Shown: one piece after another, positions 42,230 through 62,622 of the stretch | Position numbering within the stretch: the stretch's first letter is position 1 | Layout of the letters: each line of letters begins with the position of its first letter | DNA from: Nakamurella alba | GTDB lineage: Bacteria > Actinomycetota > Actinomycetes > Mycobacteriales > Nakamurellaceae | Assembly: GCF_009707545.1 (NCBI RefSeq) | Contig: NZ_WLYK01000011.1 | Span: 248,001 to 312,000, forward strand | DNA: 64,000 nucleotides | Direction: 5' to 3' | Made by a program: the position numbers and the translations under genes | The notes under the pieces: model-generated | Told to the model about the DNA's origin: nothing | Database searches by the model: none | Seen by the model: only the letters and a program-made list of their open reading frames with translations

Positions 42230-42622
42230 ATGACCCAGACCGTCGACCAGCCGACCATCGCCCCCGAGCTGTCCGTCGTCGAGCAGATCCAGCTGCGCGC
42301 CGCGGTGGAGCCGGAGTTCCGCGCCGCGGTCCTCGCGGATCCGCGTGCGGTGTTCGCCGAGTACGGCGTGCAGATCCCGGAGGCCGTCGCCGTGCGCACC
42401 GTCGAGTCGGGGGCCGAGGAGTTCGTGCTGGCGATCCCTGCCGCGGTGGACGTCGACGGGGAGCTGTCCGAGGACGCCCTGGCCGGCACCTCCGGTGGTC
42501 TGAGCCCGTTCGCCTTCATCCCCGGCATCATGGCGCTGACCGCGGCCAACGGTGGCGTCATCGTCGGTGCCACCGCGGTGATGGGTGCTGTCACCGGCGC
42601 CATCATCGGCGCCACGTCCTGA
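42230..42622 (+). CDS. NHLP-type RiPP precursor 1
   Basis: The 130-residue peptide has a 90-residue leader resembling the alpha subunit of nitrile hydratase (VVEQIQLRAAVEPEFRAAVL, DPRAVFAEYGVQIPEAVAVR, EEFVLAIPAAVD). It ends ELSEDALAGTSGG, a double-glycine site. The 40-residue core starts LSPFAFIPGI and is hydrophobic and Gly-rich, with six Ser/Thr and no Cys. It resembles pore-forming or membrane-active bacteriocin cores. AAGCAGGA precedes ATG 42230. First gene of the precursor run; its leader is closest to those of precursors 11 and 12. Modification by the nearby LanM-like enzyme and export by the NHLM transporters are inferred. Confidence 0.85.
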   Translation: MTQTVDQPTIAPELSVVEQIQLRAAVEPEFRAAVLADPRAVFAEYGVQIPEAVAVRTVESGAEEFVLAIPAAVDVDGELSEDALAGTSGGLSPFAFIPGIMALTAANGGVIVGATAVMGAVTGAIIGATS

Positions 42623-42741
42623 GTCGGATCACAGCCGCTGCCGCTGATTGTCGGACAAGCCGACGATCCGGCGGTACCGGCGCCCTGCAGCACATCAACC
42701 ACGCCCAGCACCACGACACCCGAAGAGACCAGGAGTTTCCC

Positions 42742-43107
42742 GTGCCCGTCCTGTCCGACATCCAGCTCCGCGCCGCCCACGACGCCGAGTTCCGCGCCGC
42801 ACTGATCGCCGATCCCCAGGCCACCCTGCGTGAGGCCGGCATCGAGCTGCCCGACGGCATGTCCGTCGAGGTCCAGGAGTCCACCCCGACCGTGCTGAAG
42901 CTGGACCTGCCGCCCTTCGTCGACGAGAACGCCGAGATCGCCGAGGGCGACCTGGAATCCGCCAACGGCGGCATGCTGCCGCTGGCCTTCGTGGCCGCCG
43001 GGTACATGTGCGAGGCCATCTGGGGCCTGGCCGCCGTCGGTGGTGGGCTCGTCGGTGCGACCGGCGGCTACTACGGCGCCAAGGGCATCAAGAACCTGGT
43101 CAGCTGA
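42742..43107 (+). CDS. NHLP-type RiPP precursor 2
   Basis: The 121-residue peptide has a 77-residue leader (LSDIQLRAAHDAEFRAALI, DPQATLREAGIELPDGMSVE) ending EIAEGDLESANGG. The 44-residue core begins MLPLAFVAAGYMCEAIWGLA and ends with a Gly-rich GGYYGAKGIKNLVS. It holds the only Cys in any core of the cluster, and only one, so an intramolecular lanthionine is possible at most once. The start is GTG 42742 with AGGAG six nt upstream. Confidence 0.85.
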   Translation: MPVLSDIQLRAAHDAEFRAALIADPQATLREAGIELPDGMSVEVQESTPTVLKLDLPPFVDENAEIAEGDLESANGGMLPLAFVAAGYMCEAIWGLAAVGGGLVGATGGYYGAKGIKNLVS

Positions 43108-43123
43108 GCGGCCCGGCCGACCG

Positions 43124-43534
43124 ATGACGATCACCCTTGCCGAACTGCAGACGCGGTCGGCCACCGACCGGCTCTTCCGCGAGAACCTGATCGCCGACCC
43201 GGCACAGGTTCTCGCGGAGCACGGGGTCGAGGTCCCGGACGGGATCACCGTCGAGGTGCACCCCTCCACGACGCAGACCCTGGTGCTGACCCTGCCACCC
43301 TTCCTCGGACACGACGGCGACATCGAGCTCGATGACGCAGCTCTCGGGCGGGTCGACGGCGGCAACCAATGGGTGCCCTCGGGCTTCTTCGGCAACCTGA
43401 TCGGCGGGCTCGGCCCGGTCATCGGTGCGCCGATCGGCGGGCTCGTCGGGCAGATCCCGGGCGGCATCGCCGGGCACCTCGGCTCGTTCCTGCCGTTCTC
43501 GCCCGTCCCGCCGGGCGGGATCGGCCCACGATGA
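43124..43534 (+). CDS. NHLP-type RiPP precursor 3
   Basis: The 136-residue peptide has an 80-residue leader (MTITLAELQTRSATDRLFRE) ending ALGRVDGG. At 56 residues its core is the longest. It starts NQWVPSGFFGNLIGGLGPVI, is rich in Gly, Pro, Ile and Leu, and has no Cys and only two Ser. Its leader is nearly the same as that of precursor 5 while the cores differ, a sign of leader duplication with core change. It begins 16 nt after precursor 2, and its stop overlaps the next start. Confidence 0.83.
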   Translation: MTITLAELQTRSATDRLFRENLIADPAQVLAEHGVEVPDGITVEVHPSTTQTLVLTLPPFLGHDGDIELDDAALGRVDGGNQWVPSGFFGNLIGGLGPVIGAPIGGLVGQIPGGIAGHLGSFLPFSPVPPGGIGPR

Positions 43535-43770
43535 CGATCACGCAGGTCCCCTCCGCCGACAACCATCACATCCGGAGCACCGCTCCGGAGGCCGAGGTCG
43601 ACGTCGTCGGTGCCGACACCGGGATCGCAGAAGCAGATCTCGAGAGCGCAACCGGCGGAATCGCGCCGATGCCGCCGGCCTACGCCGTCATCCAGGGCAA
43701 GGGAGGGTCCGACGGACCCGACTTCAAGTACCTCCCGTCGATCGTTCCACCCGGTGCCTACCAGCTCTGA
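43531..43770 (+). CDS. Short double-glycine peptide 4
   Basis: The 79-residue peptide has a 43-residue leader without the nitrile-hydratase fold, ending GIAEADLESATGG, almost the same tail as precursor 2. The 36-residue core begins IAPMPPAYAVIQGKGG and ends PPGAYQL. It is rich in Pro, Gly and Tyr, with no Cys and two Ser. Its ATG overlaps the precursor 3 stop (ATGA), so translation is coupled and it belongs to the same transcript. It is probably exported by the same C39 transporter. Confidence 0.7.
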   Translation: MTITQVPSADNHHIRSTAPEAEVDVVGADTGIAEADLESATGGIAPMPPAYAVIQGKGGSDGPDFKYLPSIVPPGAYQL

Positions 43771-43893
43771 GAACTGATCGCGGTGGGGCGGACGCCTGCC
43801 CTGACCCCGAACGACGCCACCCTCCTGACCGCCGCGAAACCCGGCGCTCAGGTGTTTCGCCCCCAGATCCGGACAACTCCTGAGGAGAACCCA

Positions 43894-44280
43894 GTGACCA
43901 TCACCCTGACCGACCTGCAGACCCGCTCCGCCACCGACAAGGACTTCCGCGACGCCCTGATCGCCGACCCGGCCGCGGTGCTCGCCGAGCAGGGCGTCGA
44001 GATCCCCGAGGGCGTTGCCGTCGAGGTGCACCCGTCCACCACCGAGACGCTGGTGCTGACCCTCCCGCCGTTCGCCGGCGCCGCCGCGGACGTGGAGCTG
44101 TCGGAGGACGATCTCGAGGGTGCCAGCGGCGGTCTCTACATGCCCTTCCCGATGCCCGGGATCCTCGGCCTGTTCGGCATTCCGCTCGGCGCGCCGAGCA
44201 TCGTCACCGGCCACACCGGCGGCGTCACCGGCACCATCAACACCGCGCTGCTGAGCGAGACCGGTGCCGCACTCCGCTGA
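43894..44280 (+). CDS. NHLP-type RiPP precursor 5
   Basis: The 128-residue peptide has an 80-residue leader (MTITLTDLQTRSATDKDFRD, EIPEGVAVEVHPSTTETLVL) ending ELSEDDLEGASGG. The 48-residue core starts LYMPFPMPGILGLFGIPLG and ends with Gly/Thr-rich sequence. It has no Cys and eight Ser/Thr. GTG 43894 follows TGAGGAGA. The 123-nt gap before it has no gene. A short peptide gene overlaps its 3' end by 17 nt. Confidence 0.84.
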   Translation: MTITLTDLQTRSATDKDFRDALIADPAAVLAEQGVEIPEGVAVEVHPSTTETLVLTLPPFAGAAADVELSEDDLEGASGGLYMPFPMPGILGLFGIPLGAPSIVTGHTGGVTGTINTALLSETGAALR

Positions 44281-44464
44281 TCGCGCCGACGATCCGGCCG
44301 GCGCGGACGACGAACTGCCCGACGAGGCGTTCGCGGAGGTGACCGGTGCGGGCAACGGCGGGTTCCTCACCGGACCCGGCTGGGAGTTCGGCGGCCGGCT
44401 CCGGCCACCGACGCCCGGCGCGGCACCGGTGATCCGGTACTTCGACACCACCGACCCGGCCTGA
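44264..44464 (+). CDS. Short double-glycine peptide 6
   Basis: The 66-residue peptide has a 33-residue acidic leader (DDELPDEAFAEVTGAGNGG) and a 33-residue core from FLTGPGWEFGGRLRPPTPG to FDTTDPA, with no Cys. GTG 44264 lies inside the end of precursor 5 and has no clear ribosome site, so coupled translation is likely. The case rests on the leader tail pattern shared with peptides 7-9 and on position; it is the weakest of the twelve. Confidence 0.55.
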   Translation: MPHSADRADDPAGADDELPDEAFAEVTGAGNGGFLTGPGWEFGGRLRPPTPGAAPVIRYFDTTDPA

Positions 44465-44505
44465 CCGTCCAGGCGGGCGCCGCCAACTCCCGGAAGGAAC
44501 TGAAC

Positions 44506-44709
44506 GTGCACGACAACCACTTCGCATCAGCTGATGTCGAGCTGACCGACGACGAACTGGGCGCTGTCGCCGGCGGGTTCACCATCCCCCGGGATCGCCC
44601 ACTCCGCCTGGACGAGCACCCCTTCGCCGGCGTCATCAACGGTATGACGGCGATGGATCGGCTGAAGTACGAGCTGCGGGTGCGCAGCACCTCGGCGGTG
44701 GACGAATGA
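44506..44709 (+). CDS. Short double-glycine peptide 7
   Basis: The 67-residue peptide has a 24-residue leader ending VELTDDELGAVAGG, a classical bacteriocin double-glycine leader (L-x-x-x-E-L-x-x-V-x-GG). The 43-residue core starts FTIPRDRPLRLDEHPFAGVI and is charged, with no Cys and three Ser/Thr near its end. GGAAGGAA lies upstream of GTG 44506. Its stop overlaps the next start (ATGA). Confidence 0.7.
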   Translation: MHDNHFASADVELTDDELGAVAGGFTIPRDRPLRLDEHPFAGVINGMTAMDRLKYELRVRSTSAVDE

Positions 44710-44891
44710 CGGCCGTTCCGTCGTCGGTCCCGCCGGACGACACCCAACTGGAGGAGCACGATCTCGCTGCAGTCACCGGCGGGTTCGTCGGTATGCCCAC
44801 GTTCGATCGCGGTGGCAAGGACCCGAACATCGGACTGCACATCAAGCGGACCGGTCCCCGGGTCATCCACTACATCGTCGACGAAACCTGA
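44706..44891 (+). CDS. Short double-glycine peptide 8
   Basis: The 61-residue peptide has a 26-residue leader ending LEEHDLAAVTGG. The 35-residue basic/aromatic core (FVGMPTFDRGGKDPNIGLHI onward) ends YIVDET, with no Cys. The ATG overlaps the stop of peptide 7. Like peptides 6, 7 and 9, the first core residue is aromatic. Confidence 0.7.
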   Translation: MTAVPSSVPPDDTQLEEHDLAAVTGGFVGMPTFDRGGKDPNIGLHIKRTGPRVIHYIVDET

Positions 44892-44958
44892 GCCCCACCA
44901 CACCTTCCCGCACCGAGCCACCGGCTCGTCACCGCCCCACAACACATGGAGGACTGTC

Positions 44959-45138
44959 ATGGACGATCGTCACCCTGCGCCGGAGCACGGCCTGCCCGAC
45001 GGGACAGCCCCGCTCACCGACGACGCCCTCCATGGTGTGGCCGGTGGCTACCGGGTGCAGAACCAGGACCGGTGGCCGTGGTCCTTCCCGCCCGAGGGGC
45101 CGGTGTCGAATCCGACCCGGATCACCCTCGCCGGCTGA
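44959..45138 (+). CDS. Short double-glycine peptide 9
   Basis: The 59-residue peptide has a 30-residue leader ending PLTDDALHGVAGG. The 29-residue core (YRVQNQDRWPWSFPPEGPVS then NPTRITLAG) is rich in Trp, Pro and Arg and lacks Cys. GGAGG at 44948-44952 precedes ATG 44959 by 6 nt, a strong ribosome site that supports real translation of these short genes. Confidence 0.72.
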   Translation: MDDRHPAPEHGLPDGTAPLTDDALHGVAGGYRVQNQDRWPWSFPPEGPVSNPTRITLAG

Positions 45139-45239
45139 ACCACTCGGTCCACCGGCGCGGTCGGTTGTCCCCACGCGTCCATGTGCTCGCTCCAGCCGCA
45201 GAAGATCCGCCACAGCCCCGCAGAAGAACGGAATTCCCC

Positions 45240-45593
45240 ATGACCACGTCCATCCCCACCACCAGCCCGATGACCGAGGTCCAGGTGCGTGCCGCCACCG
45301 ACCCGGCCTTCCGGGCCGCGCTGCTGAGCGACCCGCACGCCACCCTGCGCGAGGCGGGCATCGAGGTGCCCGACTCGGTCGCGGTGCGCATCGAGGAGTC
45401 GACGGCCGAGGAGTTCGTCCTCACCCTGCCGCCGGCGATCGACGTGTCCGCCGATGTCGAGCTCGACGAGGACCAGCTCGCCGGGACCTCCGGCGGTCTC
45501 AGCCCGTTCCTCGCGGGCTTCGCCGTGGTCGGCTACCTCGGCTACAAGTTCGGCGGTCCGAACAGCGCGTTCCCCACCGCCACCAAGTACTGA
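45240..45593 (+). CDS. NHLP-type RiPP precursor 10
   Basis: The 117-residue peptide has an 86-residue leader (MTEVQVRAATDPAFRAALLS, TLREAGIEVPDSVAVRIEES) ending ELDEDQLAGTSGG. The 31-residue core starts LSPFLAGFAVVGYLGYKFGG and ends with Ser/Thr/Pro, with no Cys. The first four core residues equal those of precursor 1. ATG 45240 has only a weak AGAAGAACGG site. Confidence 0.84.
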   Translation: MTTSIPTTSPMTEVQVRAATDPAFRAALLSDPHATLREAGIEVPDSVAVRIEESTAEEFVLTLPPAIDVSADVELDEDQLAGTSGGLSPFLAGFAVVGYLGYKFGGPNSAFPTATKY

Positions 45594-45681
45594 CATCTCC
45601 TCTCCGGTGTGGCGGCCCCCGCCCGTACGATGACCACCCGCAGACCGGATCCCTGATCCACGGCCGAGCAAGGACAAGAAG

Positions 45682-46041
45682 ATGACCGAGTCCGTCGCGC
45701 CGCAGGTGTCCGTTGTCGAACAGGTCCAGCTCCGTGCTGCTGTGGAGCCGGAGTTCCGGTCGGCCCTGCTGGCCGATCCGCGGACCACCCTGCGCGAGTC
45801 CGGCATCGCTGTGCCGGAACAGATCTCGATCCGGATCGAGGAATCCGGTGCTGACGAATTCGTACTGACGCTGCCGCCGGCGATCGCTCCGGGGGGCGAG
45901 CTCGAGGAGGACGTCCTCGCGGGCGCCTCCGGCGGCCTCACCCCCGGAATCGTCTTCGGAGTCGGATTCGTCGGGCTGTGGGCAGCGATCAACCTGACCG
46001 ACGACCCGAAGAACCGGGCCCAACGGATCCCCGTGCGATGA
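45682..46041 (+). CDS. NHLP-type RiPP precursor 11
   Basis: The 119-residue peptide has an 85-residue leader (VVEQVQLRAAVEPEFRSALL, DPRTTLRESGIAVPEQISIR) ending ELEEDVLAGASGG. The 34-residue core opens LTPGIVFGVGFVGLWAAINL and ends with a basic RAQRIPVR tail, with no Cys and two Thr. AAGGACAAGAAG precedes ATG 45682. The leader is nearly the same as that of precursor 12. Confidence 0.85.
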   Translation: MTESVAPQVSVVEQVQLRAAVEPEFRSALLADPRTTLRESGIAVPEQISIRIEESGADEFVLTLPPAIAPGGELEEDVLAGASGGLTPGIVFGVGFVGLWAAINLTDDPKNRAQRIPVR

Positions 46042-46126
46042 GCAGTTTTCCGGCCTTGTCCACCGGCCGAGGTCATCCCGCAGCAGTAGCCGTCCCTACC
46101 GACGAACCACAGCAACCGGAGCGATC

Positions 46127-46474
46127 ATGAGCGACATCACCACCGCGGCAACGTCCCCATTGGAGCAGATCCAGCTGCGTGCGGCCGTCGAGCCGGAGTT
46201 CCGGTCCGCGCTGATGTCCGACCCGCGAACCACGTTGCGAAAGTCCGGCATCGAGGTGCCGGAGCAGATCTCGATCCGGATCGAGGAATCGGCCGCGGAC
46301 GAGTTCGTTCTCGCCCTGCCGCCGGCGATCGACCCTGAAGCCGAGCTCGACGAGGACGCGCTGGCCGGCGCCTCCGGCGGATTCACCCCGGCCTTCCTGT
46401 ACGTCGGCGTCGTCGTCGCCGGCACCCTCGGCGCCGTGTGGTCGTTGCCGGACGGACGCAAGAAGTCGGTCTGA
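46127..46474 (+). CDS. NHLP-type RiPP precursor 12
   Basis: The 115-residue peptide has an 85-residue leader (PLEQIQLRAAVEPEFRSALM) ending ELDEDALAGASGG. The 30-residue core FTPAFLYVGVVVAGTLGAVW then SLPDGRKKSV is a hydrophobic helix followed by a basic tail, with no Cys. It is the last precursor of the run, and its stop lies 20 nt from the stop of the convergent LanM-like gene with no terminator visible between. Confidence 0.85.
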   Translation: MSDITTAATSPLEQIQLRAAVEPEFRSALMSDPRTTLRKSGIEVPEQISIRIEESAADEFVLALPPAIDPEAELDEDALAGASGGFTPAFLYVGVVVAGTLGAVWSLPDGRKKSV

Positions 46475-46494
46475 CCCCGGGAACGACGAGAGGG

Positions 46495-49101
46495 TCAGCG
46501 GAACACCAGCGGGGTCCGGACGGCCGGATCCAGCGCCGCCAGCAGTGCCAGCCCGACCCCGGCGGCGCCGTCGCCCAGCTCCGGACACCACTGCGGCTCG
46601 ACACCGGGACCGAGCAGCCGCAGGTGACCCGGCGGCTGCAGCAGGTCCCCGGGATCCTCACCCCCCAGCACCACCACCCGGCCGGCCACACCCCTGCGCA
46701 GGCCGTGCACCATCAGCTGCCGTCCCGCCGGCCCCGGATCCGGTAGCTCCGCAAGTGCCGACCCTGCCTGCGACGGCTCTGCTTGCAACGACCCTGCCTG
46801 CAGCACCGACAGTTCCGGGCACCGGCGTACGGCTGCCATCAACCCGGTGGATCCGGTTTCCCATCCGTCACCGCCGGAGTGCAGCGGGCCGGTCAGGTCG
46901 AGGCGGTCGAGTACCCGTGGATCCCCGCCGGCCGCCGCTGCCACACCGATGGCGCCGTAGGCCGCCCCGGGCACCAGGGTGAGGTCGGCCCACGACATGG
47001 GTGGCGGAACCATCATCCGTTCCACGACCGCTGGAACGAGATCGACCGCATCGTGGCGGATGTCGGTCAGCGCCCGGACACCGACGAGCAGACCCGCGAG
47101 GCCGCCGTCCAGATCGAGTCGCACCGGCCGCCGTCCCAGCCGGTCGAGGGTGCGGGTCACCAGTTGCAGCGCCGACTCCGCGAGATCGGTGTCGTCGAGC
47201 AGCACCGACAGCCGGGACAGGGCCCAGACCAGGCCACCGGACCCGGCGGACAGGCCGGGATCGGTGGGGGAGCCGGGTTGTCCGGCGCGGTACGCATCGA
47301 TCCGCGTCGCCGTACGGATGGCGGAACGAGCCAGATCGGCAGCGTCCGCATCTCCGTACACCCGCGCCGCCTCGGCCAGGAACACCGCGATCCCGGCAGC
47401 GCCGGTCAGCAGTCCGGGGCCGATCGCGCCGGTGGAGGTGGTGCCGGACAACGGGTCCCGCCGGACGCCCAGCCACCCGGCGGCATCGCCGCGGCGGTAC
47501 GCGGCCGTGGCGACGAGAGCGACAAGGTCGGCGACCCGGCCGAGGATCGTCTCGCGGTCGGGCACGACGGTCGGCTGCGGTTGCCCGTCGGAAACGGTCC
47601 CGGTCCTTGTCGCCGTCCTGGCATCGGTGCCGGAACGGTCCGGTGCGGCGGGATCGGGGGCGCGTACCGCGGACGACGGGTCCGGGAACGCGCCTGCGGC
47701 CTTTGCCGCCGACGGGCGGCCCGGGTCTTCCGCCCGGTCCGTCACCGCGGGGTAGGGCACCGCGAGTGCCGCCGCCGCCATCGACGGACCACGCGGATCC
47801 GCGACCGGGATCTCCTCCGGAATGCCGGTGAACAGCGGGATGTCGAGATCCCACAGCGCGGACAGCTCCGTGTCGAGCTGCCGGGGTTCCACCGGGTCGG
47901 GGAGCCGCCCGAGCAGCACCGTCCGCCGGTGGTCCGCCGACCGCAGCGACGCCGGGGAGGTGGAGGCGGTCAGCGCCGCGGCGTAGGTACTGGTGTGCCG
48001 CAGGATCTGTCGACCCGGCGTTCTCCTGGCTGCCTGTACCGCGGACGTGACCTCCGGGTGACCGCCCAGCAGCACCTCGGTCGCCGCGCGGTAGCCGTCC
48101 AGGAGAGCGTCCGTGTCGAGGGTGCCGGCGACGCCGAGGCCGCCGAGATGGGCCACCCCTGCGGTGATCCGCGAGCGTCCGAGCGGCACTGCGGTCGGCA
48201 GCAGCGCGGTCGCCCAGACCGACGTCTCGAAGGCCGACTCCGCCGGATCCGGGTGCCGCGCGGTGACGGCGGTCCGGCCCGGCAGCAGCACCTCTGCATC
48301 GATCACCACCGGTCCGTCGTCGACCCGGAACACGTTCTCCACGTGCAGGTCCCCGGCTCCGAGATGGCGGGCGACAGCCAGCAGGATCCCGCCGCGCCGC
48401 GCGAAGGCGGGGGAGCCGGGAGGTCGGGGCCCGTCCGCGCGGACGAACCCGACGAAGCCGTGGTCGCCGAGATCCACGACCGTCGGCCACCCGGTGGCGG
48501 GCTCACCGCAGGCAATCGCGACGACCCCGTACAGTCCGCCGAGCAGCAGCTCGGGCAGCACCGAACGGGGTTTGGCCACGACCTGCCGCCCGTCGTCGAA
48601 GGTCAGCACCGTGACCGTGCGACCGCCGTGGTGCGGGTCGCCGGTGCCGGCCAGCCCGGTGAGCGTCGCCGCGGCCGGAACCAGCCCGGCGGCCACCAGG
48701 CGTCGACGCGCTGACCGCAGCCGCCCCAGCAGTTCCACCGCGGCGTCCGCCCAGTGCCGGACCAGCACGCCGCCGATCCGCTCGCCCTCGGGATAGGCGA
48801 CCGGCATCCGGGCCGTGAGCTGTGCCACGAAGGACGGCAGGAGCGCGGCGATCTCGCCCTCGGTCGCCCCGAACGGGTGGCGTACCCGGACCGCTGCCAG
48901 ATACTCCGCGTGCACGGTCGGCGTCCACAGGTCGACCAACCGACCCGTGAGTGTGGCAGCGAGGTCCGCGAGCACGGAGTCCGCGAGCCCGGGATCGACA
49001 TCCCGTAGCCGGAGCGACAAGTCGGCCACAGCGGCGTCAACCCGCGGTTGCACCAGCAGGTGGGCCGGAGTTGCCCCGGAAGCTTGGAGACCGTCACTCA
49101 C
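46495..49101 (-). CDS. lanM: LanM-like RiPP synthetase with intact dehydratase and degenerate cyclase
   Basis: 868 residues. The N-terminal lanthipeptide dehydratase domain (DUF4135, about 60-430) keeps its kinase-eliminase residues: Lys177 in VVAKPRS, Asp251/His253/Asn256 in AGDLHVENVF, Asp268/Glu270 in VVIDAEVLLP, Arg364/Arg368/Thr370 in RQILRHTSTY, and DIPLF near 420. A Pro/Ala/Asp-rich linker (about 450-510) leads to a LanC-like barrel (515-868) with GAAG, GSGG and GLAG turns. The zinc ligands are mostly lost: the usual WC-x-G reads WETG (Glu748), and the CHG motif reads MVHG (Val798, His799 kept). The usual HG of the catalytic His reads AYGAIG (Tyr715). So phosphorylation and elimination of Ser/Thr are likely, and zinc-dependent thioether cyclisation unlikely. 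GTG 49101 lies 7 nt after TAGCAT, so it is leaderless. Confidence 0.85.
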   Translation of the reverse strand: MSDGLQASGATPAHLLVQPRVDAAVADLSLRLRDVDPGLADSVLADLAATLTGRLVDLWTPTVHAEYLAAVRVRHPFGATEGEIAALLPSFVAQLTARMPVAYPEGERIGGVLVRHWADAAVELLGRLRSARRRLVAAGLVPAAATLTGLAGTGDPHHGGRTVTVLTFDDGRQVVAKPRSVLPELLLGGLYGVVAIACGEPATGWPTVVDLGDHGFVGFVRADGPRPPGSPAFARRGGILLAVARHLGAGDLHVENVFRVDDGPVVIDAEVLLPGRTAVTARHPDPAESAFETSVWATALLPTAVPLGRSRITAGVAHLGGLGVAGTLDTDALLDGYRAATEVLLGGHPEVTSAVQAARRTPGRQILRHTSTYAAALTASTSPASLRSADHRRTVLLGRLPDPVEPRQLDTELSALWDLDIPLFTGIPEEIPVADPRGPSMAAAALAVPYPAVTDRAEDPGRPSAAKAAGAFPDPSSAVRAPDPAAPDRSGTDARTATRTGTVSDGQPQPTVVPDRETILGRVADLVALVATAAYRRGDAAGWLGVRRDPLSGTTSTGAIGPGLLTGAAGIAVFLAEAARVYGDADAADLARSAIRTATRIDAYRAGQPGSPTDPGLSAGSGGLVWALSRLSVLLDDTDLAESALQLVTRTLDRLGRRPVRLDLDGGLAGLLVGVRALTDIRHDAVDLVPAVVERMMVPPPMSWADLTLVPGAAYGAIGVAAAAGGDPRVLDRLDLTGPLHSGGDGWETGSTGLMAAVRRCPELSVLQAGSLQAEPSQAGSALAELPDPGPAGRQLMVHGLRRGVAGRVVVLGGEDPGDLLQPPGHLRLLGPGVEPQWCPELGDGAAGVGLALLAALDPAVRTPLVFR

Positions 49102-49108
49102 AGTGCCT

Positions 49109-49137
49109 ATGCTATGAGCAGTGCGTAGCCGGGGTCA
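49109..49137 (-). promoter_or_regulatory. Leaderless promoter of the LanM-like gene
   Basis: On the minus strand TGACCC (49132-49137) and TAGCAT (49109-49114) are 17 nt apart, and the GTG start follows 7 nt after the -10 box. No Shine-Dalgarno is present. Confidence 0.45.
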
Positions 49138-49274
49138 CGGCAGGTCGGTGGGGACCGTCACTCGTCCGCCCGATCCGCCCGGTACATCACCACGCCGCGC
49201 TCCTCGTTCGTGCAGTCCGTGCAGTTAGTGCCACCGCTCCCCGTCCGTCGTCACCGACACCCCGAGGTTGCCCC

Positions 49275-50129
49275 ATGACCGCGCCCGCCCCGTCACCCGC
49301 GCCGGGACTGTTCCGTCCCGAGGCGATCGCCGAGCTCGACGCCGGGAGCCAGCTGGAGAAGCGGCTCCGGATCACCGGGCCGCGCAGCTGGATCGTCCTG
49401 GTGGCTGCACTGGTGCTGGTGCTGTCCGGCACCGGCTGGGCGGTCTTCGGCCGGACCCAGGTCACGGTCGACGGGGCCGGGGCGTTCCTGCCGCCGGAGG
49501 GTCTGTTGTCCATGACCTCGCCGTTCTCCGGCACCGTCACCTCCGTCCCGGTGCTGGACACCGGCGCCGCGCCGGGCGAGCCGGTGCAGCTGGACGCCGG
49601 CGACGTGCTCCTGACCATGTCGACCATCGAGGGCGAGGAGTGGTCGATCAGCGCGCCGACCGACTCGGTGCTGGTCAACCGCGCACCGCTCGCGGCAGGC
49701 ACCCAGCTGGTGGCGGGCACCCCGATCGCCCAGCTGTTGCCGCTGGACCAGGACTCCAGTGCGCTGCTGTTCGTCGACCCCTCGGCCGCCCCGGCCATCG
49801 CGCCGGGCATGACGGTCCACCTGTCGCCGGCGACGGCGCCGTCCAGCGCCTACGGCGAGATGCTCGGCACGGTGCGCTCGGTCGGGATCCTGCCGTCCAC
49901 GGAATCCGATCTGACCCTGCTGGCCGGTGGCAACGTGGCCCTCGCCGCCGAGATGGGTCGCCTCGGCACACTGCGCGTCGAGGTGGAGCTGCAGACCGCC
50001 GACACGCCTTCCGGTTTCGCCTGGACCTCGGCGCAGGGTCCGCCCTTCGGGATCGATCCGACCACCGTGCTGACCGGCTCGGTGCAGATCGGCAGCCGCA
50101 GCCCGATCAGCTACCTGCTGGGGGGCTGA
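49275..50129 (+). CDS. NHLM-type secretion protein (HlyD-like membrane fusion protein)
   Basis: The 284-residue protein has a short cytoplasmic N-terminus (GLFRPEAIAELDAGSQLEKRL), one membrane helix (about 40-60, WIVLVAALVLVLSGTGWAVF) and a lipoyl/barrel-sandwich domain. That domain shows GAGAFLPPEGLLSMTSPFSGTVTSVPVLDTGA and QLDAGDVLLTM, and a hairpin with VLVNRAPLAAGTQLVAGTPIAQL. It lacks the long coiled coil of Gram-negative HlyD proteins, as expected for a Gram-positive exporter adaptor and for the NHLM secretion-protein family. GAGG precedes ATG 49275 by 7 nt. First gene of the export operon; the C39 transporter follows after 4 nt. Confidence 0.82.
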   Translation: MTAPAPSPAPGLFRPEAIAELDAGSQLEKRLRITGPRSWIVLVAALVLVLSGTGWAVFGRTQVTVDGAGAFLPPEGLLSMTSPFSGTVTSVPVLDTGAAPGEPVQLDAGDVLLTMSTIEGEEWSISAPTDSVLVNRAPLAAGTQLVAGTPIAQLLPLDQDSSALLFVDPSAAPAIAPGMTVHLSPATAPSSAYGEMLGTVRSVGILPSTESDLTLLAGGNVALAAEMGRLGTLRVEVELQTADTPSGFAWTSAQGPPFGIDPTTVLTGSVQIGSRSPISYLLGG

Positions 50130-50133
50130 CCAC

Positions 50134-52353
50134 ATGACCACCACCGCTGCACCACCGCCCGCACCCGCCGCTGCCACACCGCAGCCGGAGGAGAAGAAGG
50201 CCGCCCGCATCCACTGCCCGACGGTGCTGCAGATGGAGGCCGTCGAGTGCGGTGCCGCTGCGCTGGGCATCGTGCTCGCCCACTTCGGCCGCTGGGTCCC
50301 GCTGGAGGAGCTGCGCGAGATGACCGGCGTCAGCCGGGACGGCAGCAACGCCCGGTCGGTGCTGCGCGCCGGCCGCGCCTACGGACTCACCGTCCGGGCC
50401 TTCCGCCGCACCCCGGCCAGCCTGCGCAAGCTCGAGCTGCCGATCATCGTGTTCTGGCAGATGAACCACTTCCTGGTCGTCGAGGGCTGGAAGCCAGGTA
50501 CCTGGTACCTCAACGACCCGGCCACCGGCCCGCGCGAGGTCGACGACGCCGAGTTCGACCGCAGCTTCTCCGGCATCGCGATGGAATGCAGCCCCGGCCC
50601 CGAGTTCGTCACCGGCGGCGAGCGGCCACGGCCGTGGGCCCACCTCTGGTCCCGGCTCCGACCGTACCGCAGCGCGCTGGCCTACGTGGTGCTGGCCGGG
50701 CTCGCCCTGCTGGTGCCGGGTCTCGCGGTTCCGGCGCTGTCCCGGGCCTTCGTCGACGGCTACCTCGTCGCGGGCCGGGAGACCGGTCTGCCGATCGTGC
50801 TCGGCGGCATGGCCGTCGCCGCGCTGTTGCAGCTGGTGCTCACCTGGAGCCAGCAGTCGGTCATCAACCGGCTGCGGATCGCCGTCACCACCGGCATCTT
50901 CGCCGGGCAGACGCAACGCATCCTGCGGCTCGCGCTGCGCTTCTTCTCCCAGCGCGCGGCCTCCGACGTCGCCGTCCGGGCCGGCCTCGGCGGCTCGCTG
51001 GCCTCCCTGCTCAGTGGTCCGCTGGTCGCCGCCGTGCTCGGATCCACCGTCGCCGTGGTGTATCTCGCGGTGATCGCGATCATCAGCTGGCCGCTGGCGC
51101 TGGTGATCCTCGGCGCCGCCGCGGTCATCGTGTTGCTGCTCCGGCAGACCGGGCGCAAGCAGCGGGATCTCGGCACCCGGGCCATGCGTGACCAGATCGA
51201 CGCCGCCGTCACCGAATCCGCCACCGTCAACCTGATCGAGACGATCAAGGCGCAGGGCAGCGAGGACCAGTCGCTGCGGTCCATCGCCGCCGCACGGTCC
51301 CGGTTGCTCGCCGTCCGCCAGTCGCAGGAGGTGTCGATGCTGCCCCTGCAGGTGCTGCCGTCGGCGCTGACCGGCCTGACCACGCTGGCCATCCTGGCCA
51401 TGGGCGCGCTGATGGTGATGGACGGCAGCATGTCGCTCGGTGCCATGCTCGCCGTCCAGCTGCTGATGGGATCCGTGCTGGCCCCGCTCGGGCTACTCGC
51501 GACCCTGGGCAGTCAGGTGCAGATGATCAGCGCCACCGTCGACCGGCTGCAGGACGTCGAGCGCGCGGTGGTCGACCCGGAGATCCGCGCCGCGCTGACC
51601 CGGGATCCCGCCGACGGCGACCTGCACACGGCCCCGCTGACCGGGCAGGTGGACGTGCGCGGGGTGGCCTTCGGCTACAGCCCGCTGGACGAACCACTGC
51701 TCCAGGACATCGATCTCACCTTCACCCCGGGCAGCCGGGTCGCGGTGGTCGGCGGCAGCGGCAGCGGGAAGTCCACGCTGGCCCGGCTCGTCGTCGGACT
51801 GCTGCGGCCGTCGGCCGGGGAGATCCTGCTGGACGGCCGCACCCGGGAACAGCTGGGGCGCACCGTGCTCGCCGACGGCCTGGCCTTCGTCGACCAGGAC
51901 GTCGCACTGTTCGCCGGCAGCATCCGCGACAACCTCACGCTGTGGGATCCGACCGTGCCCGACGAGGCCGTGGTCGCCGCGGTCCGTGACGCCGGCCTGG
52001 AATCGGTCGTCACCGCCCGGCCCGGTGGGTACGACTCGCTGATCGGCGAGGGCGGCCGGGGGCTGTCCGGCGGCCAGCGGCAACGACTGGAGATCGCCCG
52101 GGCCCTGGTCCGGAACCCGCGGGTGCTGGTGCTGGACGAGGCGACCAGCGCCCTGGACGCCGTCACCGAACGGCACATCGACCTGGCCCTGCGCCGGCGG
52201 GGCTGCACCTGCCTGATCGTCGCGCACCGGCTGTCCACCGTCCGGGACGCGGACGAGATCGTCGTGCTGGAACGGGGCCGGATCGTCGAGAGAGGTCGGC
52301 ACGACGACCTTCTCGCTCTCGGTGGTCACTACGCGAGGCTGGTGTCGGCATGA
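50134..52353 (+). CDS. NHLM-type ABC exporter with C39 leader peptidase
   Basis: The 739-residue peptidase-containing exporter cuts leaders after double glycine and exports the core. The C39 domain (25-150) has Gln33 and Cys39 (QMEAVECG), His112 (MNHFLVV) and Asp128 (YLNDPA). Six membrane helices follow (about 180-450). The ABC domain shows Walker A VVGGSGSGKST, signature LSGGQRQRLE, Walker B VLVLDEATSALD and the H-loop IVAHRLS. All catalytic residues are intact. It is the expected processing enzyme for the twelve GG-type leaders upstream. The stop overlaps the next start (ATGA). Confidence 0.92.
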   Translation: MTTTAAPPPAPAAATPQPEEKKAARIHCPTVLQMEAVECGAAALGIVLAHFGRWVPLEELREMTGVSRDGSNARSVLRAGRAYGLTVRAFRRTPASLRKLELPIIVFWQMNHFLVVEGWKPGTWYLNDPATGPREVDDAEFDRSFSGIAMECSPGPEFVTGGERPRPWAHLWSRLRPYRSALAYVVLAGLALLVPGLAVPALSRAFVDGYLVAGRETGLPIVLGGMAVAALLQLVLTWSQQSVINRLRIAVTTGIFAGQTQRILRLALRFFSQRAASDVAVRAGLGGSLASLLSGPLVAAVLGSTVAVVYLAVIAIISWPLALVILGAAAVIVLLLRQTGRKQRDLGTRAMRDQIDAAVTESATVNLIETIKAQGSEDQSLRSIAAARSRLLAVRQSQEVSMLPLQVLPSALTGLTTLAILAMGALMVMDGSMSLGAMLAVQLLMGSVLAPLGLLATLGSQVQMISATVDRLQDVERAVVDPEIRAALTRDPADGDLHTAPLTGQVDVRGVAFGYSPLDEPLLQDIDLTFTPGSRVAVVGGSGSGKSTLARLVVGLLRPSAGEILLDGRTREQLGRTVLADGLAFVDQDVALFAGSIRDNLTLWDPTVPDEAVVAAVRDAGLESVVTARPGGYDSLIGEGGRGLSGGQRQRLEIARALVRNPRVLVLDEATSALDAVTERHIDLALRRRGCTCLIVAHRLSTVRDADEIVVLERGRIVERGRHDDLLALGGHYARLVSA

Positions 52354-55049
52354 CGGCCGCGGAGGTACGCACGATGCAGGTGTCCACCCCGCTGCCGGTG
52401 CCGCCGGGCGGTGACTGGTACCGGGTGCTGTCCGGCGCCGTGGTGGTCCGGCCCGTCGACGACCCAGGTGCTCCCGGGGTCGCGGTCCTGCAGGCCGGCG
52501 AGGTGGTGGTGGCCGCGGGACGGCACACCCTGCTGCTCGACCCGGTCGGCAGCGCGGAGGTGCTGCCGCTGGACCCGGCCGATTTCGAGACCCTCTGCGA
52601 GCCGGACACCGTCGCCGGACTGCGCAGCTGGTTCGGGCATCTCGCGGATGCGGCCGGTGGTCAGGCGGGACGGTCCGCGGTCGAGTCCGACACCGATCGC
52701 GAACTGCACCTGGACACGGTCGGGTCGTCCGGTGGCGGCGCCGACAGTCTGTCCGCGCTCGACCTGATCTCCCGGACCGACACCCTGCTCGACGCCGTCG
52801 CGGTGGCTGCCGCATCCGAGGAACGGTCCAGGTCGGAGCGGATGGCAGCGGCCGTGCGCGGCGCCGCCGGACACACGGACCGGGCCGCGGTCGGTGTCCT
52901 CGCCGACGCCGTCCCGCAGCTGCGTCGTGCGGGCGCCGGGACGGTCGTCGACCCGATCGCCGCTGCGCTGGTGCTGCTCGGTGTGCCGGTCGAAGCCGGG
53001 CGCGGACAGCAGGACATCGCCCCCGGCCCCGACCCGCTCGACGACCTGGAACAGCGGGCCGATCGTGGCCGCCGGGTGGTCCGGCGGGTCCAGCTGGTCG
53101 GCGATCCGCGGAAGGACCTCGCCGCTCCGACGGCCACGCTGCTGGCGGGCCGGCTCGTGGTGCTGGTACCGGCCGGGATCGGCGCACGGGTGGTCGATCC
53201 GGCCACCGGCGCCGCCCGCCGGCTGCGATCGGCGGACCTGCCCGCCCTGGGATCCGAGGGACTGGTCGGGATCGTCGAGCTCCCGCGCCGGACCGGACTG
53301 CGCGAGCTGGGACGGCTCGCGGTCCGCGGCAGCGGCCGGGACCTGGCGCTCGCCGGCGCCCTGGCGCTGGCCGCCGGACTGCTGGCCCTGCTGCTGCCCC
53401 AGGCCGGTGGCGCGATCTTCTCCTCGATCGCCCCGGCCCGCGATCACACCCGGCTGGCCGCGCTGGTCGCCGCGTTGATCGGCGTGCTGGTCGCCACCGC
53501 GCTGATCGGTGTCGCCCAGGGGCATCTGGCCACCCGGATCCGGACCCGGGTCGATGCGTCGGCGGGCAATGCCGTCTTCGCCCGGCTGCTCCGGCTGCCT
53601 GCCACCTTTTTCGCCCGGCACGGCGCCGGTAAACTGCTCACCCGGGCCGGCGTGGTCGACCATCTCCGGCAGATCGTCGGCGACTCGTTCGTCGGCGGCC
53701 TGGTCGGCGGCGTCACCGCGCTGTTCAGCGTGGGACTGATCCTCGCCCACAGCACCGCCGCGGGCCTGCTGACCCTCGGACTGGTCGTGGTGCAGGTGCT
53801 GGTGGTGGCTGTGGTCGTGCGGAAGCGCCGGCCGTTGCTGGAGGAGAGTGCCCGCGCCTCACAGGATCTCGCCGGTCTGACCCTGGAGACCATGAAGGGT
53901 GTCAACCGGATCCGGGCGTTCGCCGCCGAGGAGCGGGTGATGGAGCGGGTGGCCGGTGCCTTCGCGACGGTGAGCCGGCTCGGCGCCCGCGACGCGTGGT
54001 GGTCGACCGTGCTGACCACGATGCTCGCCGCCTGGTCCACCATCGGCGTGCTCGCCGTCACCGTCGGCCTGACCCTGGGCGACAGCTCCGACCCGGCCGG
54101 CTACATCGTGCTCACCACCGCGCTCGGCCAGGTGCTGGCCGGGGTGGGAACGCTGACCACGACGGCCCTGTCGCTGATGCTGGTCAAGCCGCAGCTGGAC
54201 CAGCTGCGGCCGATCCTGGACGAGATCCCGGAGCAGTCCGCGGATCCGGAGCCCGACGGGACCGCCGGTGCCACCGGTGCCACCGGTGGTGTCGCCGTCG
54301 CCGTGCCGGAACTCCGCGGTGGGGTGGAACTGTCGTCGGTGTCGTTCCGCTACGCGGCGGACGGCCCGCTGGTGCTGGACGACGTCTCGATCGCCGTCCG
54401 TCCGGGGGAGTTCGTCGCGATCGTCGGGCCCTCCGGTTCCGGCAAGTCCACCCTGCTGCGGCTGCTGCTCGGCTTCGAGCAGCCCGGCACCGGTGTGGTC
54501 AGCTACGACGGCACCCCGCTGGACCGCCTCGACGTCCGCGCGGTGCGCCGGCAGATCGGCACCGTGCTCCAGCACGGCGGTCTGTTCCCCGGCAGCCTGG
54601 CCGACAACATCAAGGGTGGGCGGCCTCTCACCTCTGACGAGATCTGGCAGGCGGCCGACGCCGCCCAGGTGGGTGCGGACATCCGGCGGATGCCGATGGG
54701 CCTGCACACCTTCGTGGTGGAGGGCGCGGCCACGCTGTCCGGCGGTCAGCGGCAGCGGCTGATCATCGCCCGCGCGCTGGCCGGCGCCCCGTCGATGCTC
54801 TACCTGGACGAGGCCACCTCGGCGCTGGACAACATCACGCAGGCCGCGGTCGCCGAGTCGCTGAGCGCGCTCGACGTCACCCGCGTGGTGATCGCGCACC
54901 GGCTCTCCACGGTGCGCGACGCGGACCGCATCCTGGTGCTGGACGGCGGACGCGTGGTGCAGGCCGGCAGCTACCACGAGCTGATCGACACCCCCGGCCT
55001 GTTCGCCGATCTCGCCCGCCGGCAGATGCTGGAGGAGGGCGGGGTCTGA
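52350..55049 (+). CDS. NHLM-type ABC exporter without peptidase, large N-terminal extension
   Basis: The 899-residue second exporter has about 320 residues before the first membrane helix. The first 90 form a beta-rich, cyclic-nucleotide-binding-like roll (DWYRVLSGAVVVRPVDDPGA, VAVLQAGEVVVAAGRHTLLL). Six helices and an ABC domain follow: Walker A VGPSGSGKSTLL (about 695), signature LSGGQRQRLI (about 797), Walker B MLYLDEATSALD and H-loop VIAHRLS. No C39 residues are present. This layout is that of the second ABC protein of NHLM bacteriocin systems. It probably pairs with the peptidase-containing exporter as a heterodimer. Translation is coupled by a 4-nt overlap. Confidence 0.9.
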   Translation: MTAAEVRTMQVSTPLPVPPGGDWYRVLSGAVVVRPVDDPGAPGVAVLQAGEVVVAAGRHTLLLDPVGSAEVLPLDPADFETLCEPDTVAGLRSWFGHLADAAGGQAGRSAVESDTDRELHLDTVGSSGGGADSLSALDLISRTDTLLDAVAVAAASEERSRSERMAAAVRGAAGHTDRAAVGVLADAVPQLRRAGAGTVVDPIAAALVLLGVPVEAGRGQQDIAPGPDPLDDLEQRADRGRRVVRRVQLVGDPRKDLAAPTATLLAGRLVVLVPAGIGARVVDPATGAARRLRSADLPALGSEGLVGIVELPRRTGLRELGRLAVRGSGRDLALAGALALAAGLLALLLPQAGGAIFSSIAPARDHTRLAALVAALIGVLVATALIGVAQGHLATRIRTRVDASAGNAVFARLLRLPATFFARHGAGKLLTRAGVVDHLRQIVGDSFVGGLVGGVTALFSVGLILAHSTAAGLLTLGLVVVQVLVVAVVVRKRRPLLEESARASQDLAGLTLETMKGVNRIRAFAAEERVMERVAGAFATVSRLGARDAWWSTVLTTMLAAWSTIGVLAVTVGLTLGDSSDPAGYIVLTTALGQVLAGVGTLTTTALSLMLVKPQLDQLRPILDEIPEQSADPEPDGTAGATGATGGVAVAVPELRGGVELSSVSFRYAADGPLVLDDVSIAVRPGEFVAIVGPSGSGKSTLLRLLLGFEQPGTGVVSYDGTPLDRLDVRAVRRQIGTVLQHGGLFPGSLADNIKGGRPLTSDEIWQAADAAQVGADIRRMPMGLHTFVVEGAATLSGGQRQRLIIARALAGAPSMLYLDEATSALDNITQAAVAESLSALDVTRVVIAHRLSTVRDADRILVLDGGRVVQAGSYHELIDTPGLFADLARRQMLEEGGV

Positions 55050-62194: not shown

Positions 62195-62449
62195 CCCCTC
62201 GTCCGCCGGTACCCCGCGCGCTGCTGCCCGGACCTGCTCCTGAACGACCGAGGGTAGAGGAAGTCCTGCCCGGAACCTCCGGATACCGGCTGTTTCGGAC
62301 CGCAGGAACCGGACTTGAGGAGCCTGGAGTCGGCGGAGTGATCGCAGGAACCGGCCGGTCGTACCGCCCGAATCGCACCTCCGCCGATCGATCGTCGCCG
62401 CTGTCGGCGCCCGCACACCACCGACGCCAGGCATCGCAAGGTCGGTGGC

Positions 62450-62495
62450 CCACTTGTCCCCGAACAGGACAAGACGGGGACAAGTGGACGACAAG
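62450..62495. promoter_or_regulatory. SARP-type direct heptamer repeats with an inverted copy
   Basis: GGACAAG at 62467-62473, GGACAAG at 62478-62484 and CGACAAG at 62489-62495 are spaced exactly 11 bp. An inverted CTTGTCC at 62453-62459 makes a perfect 13-bp inverted repeat (62450-62462 with 62475-62487). Heptamers on an 11-bp period are the known binding pattern of SARP regulators. The site lies between the AfsR-like gene and the dehydrogenase gene. Confidence 0.65.
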
Positions 62496-62622
62496 GTCCC
62501 CGGGCGAGGCTTCTCCATGTTCCGGTCGACCGCTGCTGCGGGCCGGCCGGGACTTCAGGACAACAGCCGTCAGAGCACCCCGGGTCGACACACCCGGGGG
62601 ACACCCGAGGAGGTCGACCCCC

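Follow-up and report, generated by a model that had tools for sequence, protein, structure and literature searches.

A Nakamurella locus of NHLP-leader precursors and a LanM-type enzyme without a zinc site: a candidate dehydratase-only proteusin-like system

Gene content of the locus

The window analyzed here is a 64,000-nucleotide stretch of Nakamurella alba DNA (contig NZ_WLYK01000011.1, positions 248,001 to 312,000) from a genome of 6.05 Mb in 29 contigs with a completeness rating of 100%. Between positions 42230 and 55049 it carries seven precursors with a nitrile hydratase-like leader peptide (NHLP), five short double-glycine open reading frames (ORFs), one LanM-like gene, and genes for an HlyD-like protein, an ATP-binding cassette protein with a C39 peptidase (ABC1) and a second such protein (ABC2) (Table 1). 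An earlier reading of these letters without database searches (the sequence-only reading) had listed the same twelve precursors, LanM-like gene and three exporter genes, and family matches and open frames place all of them where it had put them. Only the LanM-like gene lies on the minus strand; the other 15 ORFs are on the plus strand. All 16 ORFs are open to their stop codons, with a G+C content at codon position 3 of 0.81–0.96. The open frames, the family matches and the G+C content at the third codon position show that the genes of the locus are real, S6 being the most doubtful of the short ORFs. Neither Rfam families nor tRNA genes were detected in the window.

Table 1. Features of the locus, with positions in the window; a slash separates the Gly-Gly motif from the core
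Feature	Coordinates	Strand	Length and start	Remarks
N1, NHLP precursor	42230..42622	+	130 aa	core GG/LSPFAFIPG..., Cys-free; TIGR03793 E 1.1e-11; PF02979 E 1.4e-7; G+C position 3 0.92
N2, NHLP precursor	42742..43107	+	121 aa, GTG start	core GG/MLPLAF...; TIGR03793 54.9 bits, above cut-off
N3, NHLP precursor	43124..43534	+	136 aa	core GG/NQWVPS...; TIGR03793 E 2.3e-12
S4, short peptide	43531..43770	+	79 aa	ATGA overlap with N3; starts MTIT, as do N3 and N5
N5, NHLP precursor	43894..44280	+	128 aa, GTG start	core GG/LYMPFP...; TIGR03793 E 3.5e-13
S6, short peptide	44264..44464	+	66 aa, GTG start	overlaps end of N5; G+C position 3 0.87; open to stop
S7, short peptide	44506..44709	+	67 aa, GTG start	short double-glycine peptide
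S8, short peptide	44706..44891	+	61 aa	ATGA overlap with S7
S9, short peptide	44959..45138	+	59 aa	GGAGG upstream of ATG
N10, NHLP precursor	45240..45593	+	117 aa	core GG/LSPFLAG...; TIGR03793 51.4 bits, above cut-off
N11, NHLP precursor	45682..46041	+	119 aa	core GG/LTPGIV...; TIGR03793 E 8.6e-11
N12, NHLP precursor	46127..46474	+	115 aa	core GG/FTPAFL...; TIGR03793 E 5e-13
LanM-like enzyme	46495..49101	-	868 aa	DUF4135 dehydratase, intact-looking; LanC-like domain without zinc triad
HlyD-like NHLM adaptor	49275..50129	+		TIGR03794 E 7.5e-31, best family, below cut-off
NHLM ABC1: C39 peptidase, permease, ATPase	50134..52353	+		TIGR03796 877.8 bits, cut-off 853.3, passed; PF03412 E 1.3e-30
NHLM ABC2: permease/ATPase, no peptidase	52350..55049	+		TIGR03797 E 1.1e-177, best family, below cut-off

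The LanM-like enzyme keeps dehydration residues and lacks the zinc triad

The LanM-like enzyme contains a DUF4135 dehydratase domain (PF13575, E 7.5e-50) and a LANC_like match (PF05147, E 1.7e-10) that spans profile positions 5–172 of 350, about half of the domain. Against the LanM family TIGR03897 it scores 209.1 bits, below the cut-off of 304. In CylM, nine residues have been assigned to the phosphorylation and elimination steps, and the zinc ligands are Cys875, Cys911 and His912 (PMC4550811). All nine dehydration residues are kept in the window enzyme (D155, H157, K177, D251, H253, N256, D268, R364 and T370), and equivalents of the CylM elimination residues D252, H254, R506 and T512 are all present. 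The enzyme therefore combines DUF4135 with the residues for both steps, and does not show the loss of elimination residues that marks the phospeptin type. Nor is it of the PoyF type, a dehydratase without a LanC-like domain, since the LANC_like match persists.

The LanC-like domain has no Cys-Cys-His zinc triad. In a 24-row alignment the triad falls on Glu-Arg-Arg, WC.G being replaced by WETG and LCHG by LRRG, and the crippled cyclase suspected in the sequence-only reading is thereby borne out. Apart from three zinc-less enzymes, WC.G and C[H/C]G are kept in 21 of 21 full-length LanM rows, a count valid for the rows retained; two excluded rows, L050 (a 930-aa ORF with no triad motifs and a divergent end, taken as a broken frame) and L085 (590 aa, no LanC motifs), are also without triads. 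The remaining rows left out of the alignment and trees were L018 (a copy of L016), L022 (no full ORF) and L051, L081, L084, L086 and L088 (no LanM ORF recognized; L088 lies inside L051). A global profile–profile alignment independently aligns LRRG with LCHG and matches the same Trp to that of WC.G. Conservation is weak in the second half of the LanC-like domain. A frameshifted or decayed C-terminus was considered and ruled out, the frame being open to its stop and its end aligning with the enzyme of Nakamurella leprariae described below (LGDGxAGVGL). As a separate observation, the excluded 590-aa ORF (genome G072, L085:9345-11117) is LanM dehydratase-like and possibly a PoyF-like stand-alone enzyme.

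The sequence-only reading had seen neither a stand-alone LanC nor a YcaO gene, and had named a separate LanC elsewhere in the genome as evidence that would count against it. Both absences extend to the whole genome: at E 0.001 the sole PF05147 match is the window LanM gene, which speaks against a second LanC, and a profile search of the genome, rated 100% complete, returned no PF02624 (YcaO) match.

Precursors and their cores

All seven NHLP precursors of the window match TIGR03793 (E 8.6e-11 to 5.8e-15), two of them above the curated cut-off in the protein scan, and they carry an NHLP/proteusin leader with a Gly-Gly end. A second site (L010:10275-11823, contig C1, minus strand) holds four more, bringing the genome total to 11; no LanM or NHLM exporter gene was seen beside it within the 20 kb examined. 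Six NHLP precursors occur in N. leprariae, two of these distant from its LanM gene.

The 17 cores from the two genomes are hydrophobic (75.8% GAVILFMWP), with 6.6% charged residues, and hold two Cys in 607 residues. Fifteen have none; N2, the sole Cys-containing NHLP core of the window, and one N. leprariae core have a single Cys each. The substrates are thus almost free of Cys, as first noted, and as a set do not offer the Cys for thioether rings that characterizes a lanthipeptide precursor. A Cys-rich precursor set elsewhere, which would also have told against the earlier account, does not appear among the 11 NHLP matches of the genome, 10 of whose cores are Cys-free.

The 17 cores diverge widely apart from their start. 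Pro occupies core position 3 in 14 of them, against a mean of 1.2 after shuffling each core, and Ser/Thr-Pro occupies positions 2–3 in 10, against a mean of 0.14. After look-alike starts were thinned, leaving 11 of the 15 cores then known, Pro was found at position 3 in 9/11 and Ser/Thr-Pro in 5/11 (0.07 expected).

Two side observations concern the orphan precursors. The core stretch TGTIN[ST]AL is common to one of them in N. leprariae (L118:7011-7349) and to N5 of the window. At two of three orphan NHLP sites a UvrA-type ATPase-like ORF, recognized by eye, lies within ∼6 kb (L010:995-4963; L119:10030-12426), which may be chance.

At E 1e-5, TIGR03793 has matches in 42 of 150 genomes of the order, and the matching sequences were inspected in five (G000, G008, G001, G062 and G005). 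The match in G005, a third Nakamurella, is a nitrile hydratase alpha subunit, judging from its VCTLCSC motif. In G062 an NHLP-like precursor adjoins a triad-bearing LanM and ends Cys-rich, in contrast to the 17 cores. G001 has an NHLP-like precursor (L034:18920-19450) that ends in two four-Cys runs; a P450-like ORF (by eye) adjoins it, and an NHLM exporter lies ∼3 kb away.

Relatives of the enzyme

LanM relatives were found in three of 17 family genomes, which represent one genus in the collection: the window genome, N. leprariae YIM 132084 (G008) and G013. Identity between the window enzyme and that of N. leprariae is 41% overall (dehydratase 42.6%, cyclase-like part 35.9%), and the latter also has all nine dehydration residues. 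Its first zinc Cys is missing, LRRGVAG supplies the same Arg-Arg as in the window, and its LANC_like match reaches only 19 bits, below the cut-off and weaker than that of the window enzyme. The gene is divergent from adjoining HlyD, ABC1 and ABC2 genes (best families TIGR03794, TIGR03796 and TIGR03797, each below cut-off) and is followed by four NHLP precursors in the same direction, whereas the window precursors face LanM. Because N. leprariae shares the core arrangement, the 41% identical enzyme and the Arg-Arg pair, the comparison argues that the zinc-less LanM locus is a conserved, narrow type and not a decayed gene.

The genome contig collection gave no match to the window LanM alone, and gave N. 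leprariae and five distant LanMs when scanned with a two-row LanM alignment; the plasmid collection yielded 20 records, none with 80% query coverage. The N. leprariae LanM matched nine genomes among 61 relatives at E 1e-8, and the two-row profile matched 25 of the 150 genomes of the order at E 1e-10.

Each of the three trees joins the N. leprariae enzyme to that of the window (100/100, 99/96 and 100/98). The cyclase-domain tree groups this pair with the third zinc-less enzyme, from G013 (94/93), and the whole-protein tree does so weakly and on a long branch (80/86). When the dehydratase domains are compared, the pair is split from G013 by a 99/96 branch, although the resulting tree also draws in the long-branch row L019. 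A shared clade of the pair and the G013 enzyme seems unlikely, and the zinc site may have been lost either once or twice. By gene content (YcaO, TfuA and LanMbC; TfuA by eye), the G013 cluster fits the dehydrazole-type cluster of Nakamurella sp. PAMC28650, which is mentioned in the dehydrazole paper (PMC10676384). PF02624 has three matches in G013, one in G005 and none in N. leprariae.

Exporter and short double-glycine peptides

The best families of the HlyD-like protein, ABC1 and ABC2 are TIGR03794, TIGR03796 and TIGR03797, the three components of NHLM export, with the cut-off passed by ABC1 only. ABC1 contains QMEAVEC, NHFLVV and LND stretches, which we take to be the C39 catalytic motifs, and the C39 exporter appears intact. 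NHLP precursors were described with LanM and with the NHLM exporter in 2010 (PMC2887384). Some 4 kb past the exporter, at 59222-62518, lies a BTAD-domain (SARP-like) regulator that could control the locus.

Family searches give the short peptides no clear assignment: NCBIfam at E 0.01 has no family for S4, S7, S8 and S9, and Pfam at E 1 has none for S6 and S7. A custom NHLP profile matches S4 (E 0.0012), S8 (E 0.0021) and S7 (E 0.0088) weakly, at a level where an unrelated ABC ORF also appears (E 0.017). S4 may be an NHLP precursor stripped of its nitrile-hydratase-like part, and S6, with the double-glycine stretch GAGNGG, is the weakest call. The short peptides have no recognizable NHLP domain, and charged residues make up 22.8% of the six cores examined (the window five and one from G005), against 6.6% in the NHLP cores. 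In G005 that one short peptide adjoins HlyD, ABC1 and ABC2 genes (family scans), and searches of the 17 family genomes and LanM profile scans found no LanM match in this genome. Since G005 pairs such a peptide with the NHLM set and no LanM match, the short peptides are probably exporter cargo independent of LanM, a conclusion drawn from a single genome. The sequence-only reading had paired the enzyme with all twelve precursors; that pairing would hold for the seven with NHLP leaders and should probably be dropped for the five short ones, given their missing NHLP domain, their charge and the G005 case.

Discussion

We favor, with moderate confidence, the interpretation that this is a proteusin-like (NHLP) locus whose LanM-type enzyme works as a dehydratase only. 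Because the dehydrating half is kept and the ring-closing metal site is lost, the products would probably be water-loss-modified, ring-free hydrophobic peptides and not lantibiotics. Zinc mutants of lacticin 481 synthetase are reported to retain dehydration (cited in PMC10301443 and PMC11356792). The NHLP leader would bring the hydrophobic, Gly/Ala-rich cores to LanM, which would phosphorylate Ser/Thr and then eliminate to give dehydroalanine or dehydrobutyrine (Dha/Dhb), the first dehydration falling most likely at the Ser/Thr-Pro just behind Gly-Gly. Thioether rings would not form. ABC1 is predicted to cleave after Gly-Gly, with the peptides exported as a mixture, and the short charged double-glycine peptides would use the same exporter and not LanM. 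The enzyme probably also acts in trans on the four distant precursors. The sequence-only reading had held that this is not an ordinary lanthipeptide cluster, and the lost zinc site, the retained dehydration residues and the NHLM set agree with it.

Several points weigh against this interpretation. The NHLP precursors are paralogs, so the 17 cores are not independent and their start motif supports constraint without providing a clean probability; moreover, two N. leprariae cores sit behind Ala-Gly rather than Gly-Gly. Seven of the 17 lack Ser/Thr-Pro and further Ser/Thr occur within the cores, which makes the dehydration site a guess. Pro at position 3 is commoner than Ser/Thr and may have to do with the peptidase or the membrane instead; one short core has it as well. 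The absence of Ser/Thr-Pro from all six short cores differs from 10 of 17 NHLP cores at p = 0.017 only. For the enzyme, the placement of Arg-Arg is alignment-based, the local profile alignment ending before that region. The dehydration residues vary among compared LanMs (Arg replaces Lys274 in L078 and L079, for example), so their retention is supportive and no proof of activity. Finally, the known range of the type is two species only.

Among the alternatives, the one that survives best, although unlikely, is that LanM has no catalytic role, being a leftover or an escort for export, and that the peptides are all released without modification in the manner of class II bacteriocins. The exporter and short peptide of G005 are consistent with it, as are two cores with weak similarity to class II bacteriocins (PF10439 E 0.025 and 0.034, below cut-off), and the zinc-less LanM-like CA_C0082 of Clostridium acetobutylicum is reported to have a role despite missing catalytic residues (PMC10301443). 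CA_C0082, however, is described in the same paper as having lost dehydratase residues, whereas all nine are kept here although the enzymes of the two species are only 41% identical.

It is again unlikely, and ranks next, that the enzyme phosphorylates Ser/Thr without elimination to give a phosphopeptide. EmbM, a LanM-like enzyme without a cyclase, is reported to act in this way at core Thr3/Thr4 of the Cys-free EmbA (PMC9505594, PMC9259500), and Ser/Thr at core position 2 in cores of the window type could be a similar target; but EmbM is described as lacking the elimination residues (PMC9505594), whose equivalents are all present in the window enzyme. Less probable still is zinc-independent ring closure of the kind seen in class III enzymes, whose cyclase domains are reported to cyclize without zinc ligands (PMC7268733, PMC10301443). 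The single Cys of two cores, or another nucleophile such as the Lys near the C-terminus of several cores, could take part, yet 15 of the 17 cores have no Cys. A dehydrazole pathway, in which LanMbC dehydrates Ser beside azoles, is made very unlikely by the lack of YcaO matches in both genomes, the nearly Cys-free cores and the dehydratase-domain tree, even though CcaM/CcaA likewise join a zinc-less cyclase domain to an NHLP leader (PMC10676384), the genus contains the G013 cluster and the cyclase-domain tree unites the three zinc-less enzymes.

Within the dehydratase-only interpretation, a more specific proposal is tentative. The pair may represent an actinobacterial branch of dehydro-proteusins that lack rings and do not depend on YcaO, in which the zinc Cys-His has become a fixed Arg-Arg. 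LanM would install Dha/Dhb where many hydrophobic, hypervariable cores, encoded near and far, begin with x-[Ser/Thr]-Pro, and the old cyclase domain might now handle substrate or phosphate.

Comparison with known systems

We found only a few, scattered published reports of LanM-like enzymes that do not close rings. The present locus offers two species with the same loss and 17 natural substrates, 10 of which share the start motif, and the same genus provides natural controls: one cluster of the dehydrazole type, and one with the exporter and no LanM match. Together these allow a direct test of how a synthetase with two functions turns into a simple dehydratase, and of the role of the leftover cyclase domain. 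This Nakamurella type did not come up in our literature search, most subscription papers being outside its reach. It is already known, from reports on phospeptin EmbM, Pseudanabaena galeata, dehydrazoles and PoyF, that cyclase-dead or cyclase-less LanM-like enzymes occur with Cys-free precursors or ring-free products.

Cores of the polytheonamide type are hydrophobic and Cys-poor, like those of the window. In that system PoyF is a LanM-type dehydratase without a cyclase that acts on an NHLP precursor and is reported to dehydrate an N-terminal core Thr (PMC9505594). PoyF differs in being a dehydratase domain alone with one Thr target, whereas the window enzyme keeps a degenerate LanC-like domain and has many precursors; polytheonamide also needs radical SAM genes and methyltransferases. 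EmbM of phospeptin resembles the window enzyme in being LanM-like with no zinc-dependent cyclase domain, in its Cys-free precursor and in its targets near the core start (PMC9505594, PMC9259500), but its elimination residues are reportedly lost, the phosphate stays, and the leader is Nif11-like.

A LanM-like gene of Pseudanabaena galeata CCNP1313 is similar in that its zinc ligands are gone (A875, M911 and W912 in CylM numbering), its precursor is Cys-free and peptidase-ABC export genes lie ∼9 kb off (PMC11356792). It is described with a Nif11 leader, one named precursor, a location on a cyanobacterial plasmid and different residues at the zinc positions. In the dehydrazoles, CcaM (LanMbC) likewise fuses DUF4135 to a zinc-ligand-free cyclase-like domain and works with an NHLP leader (PMC10676384), but it is reported to require YcaO-made azoles and a Cys-rich precursor, and the window genome has no match to that cyclodehydratase. 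Prochlorosins share the principle of one LanM with many precursors, some encoded far away (PMC7268733), ProcM being a solitary promiscuous enzyme (PMC10783134), but ProcM forms thioether rings and its substrates have Nif11 leaders. As far as the sequences go, what is new here is the combination, which differs from each of these cases in leader, precursor number, elimination residues, LanC-like domain or absence of YcaO.

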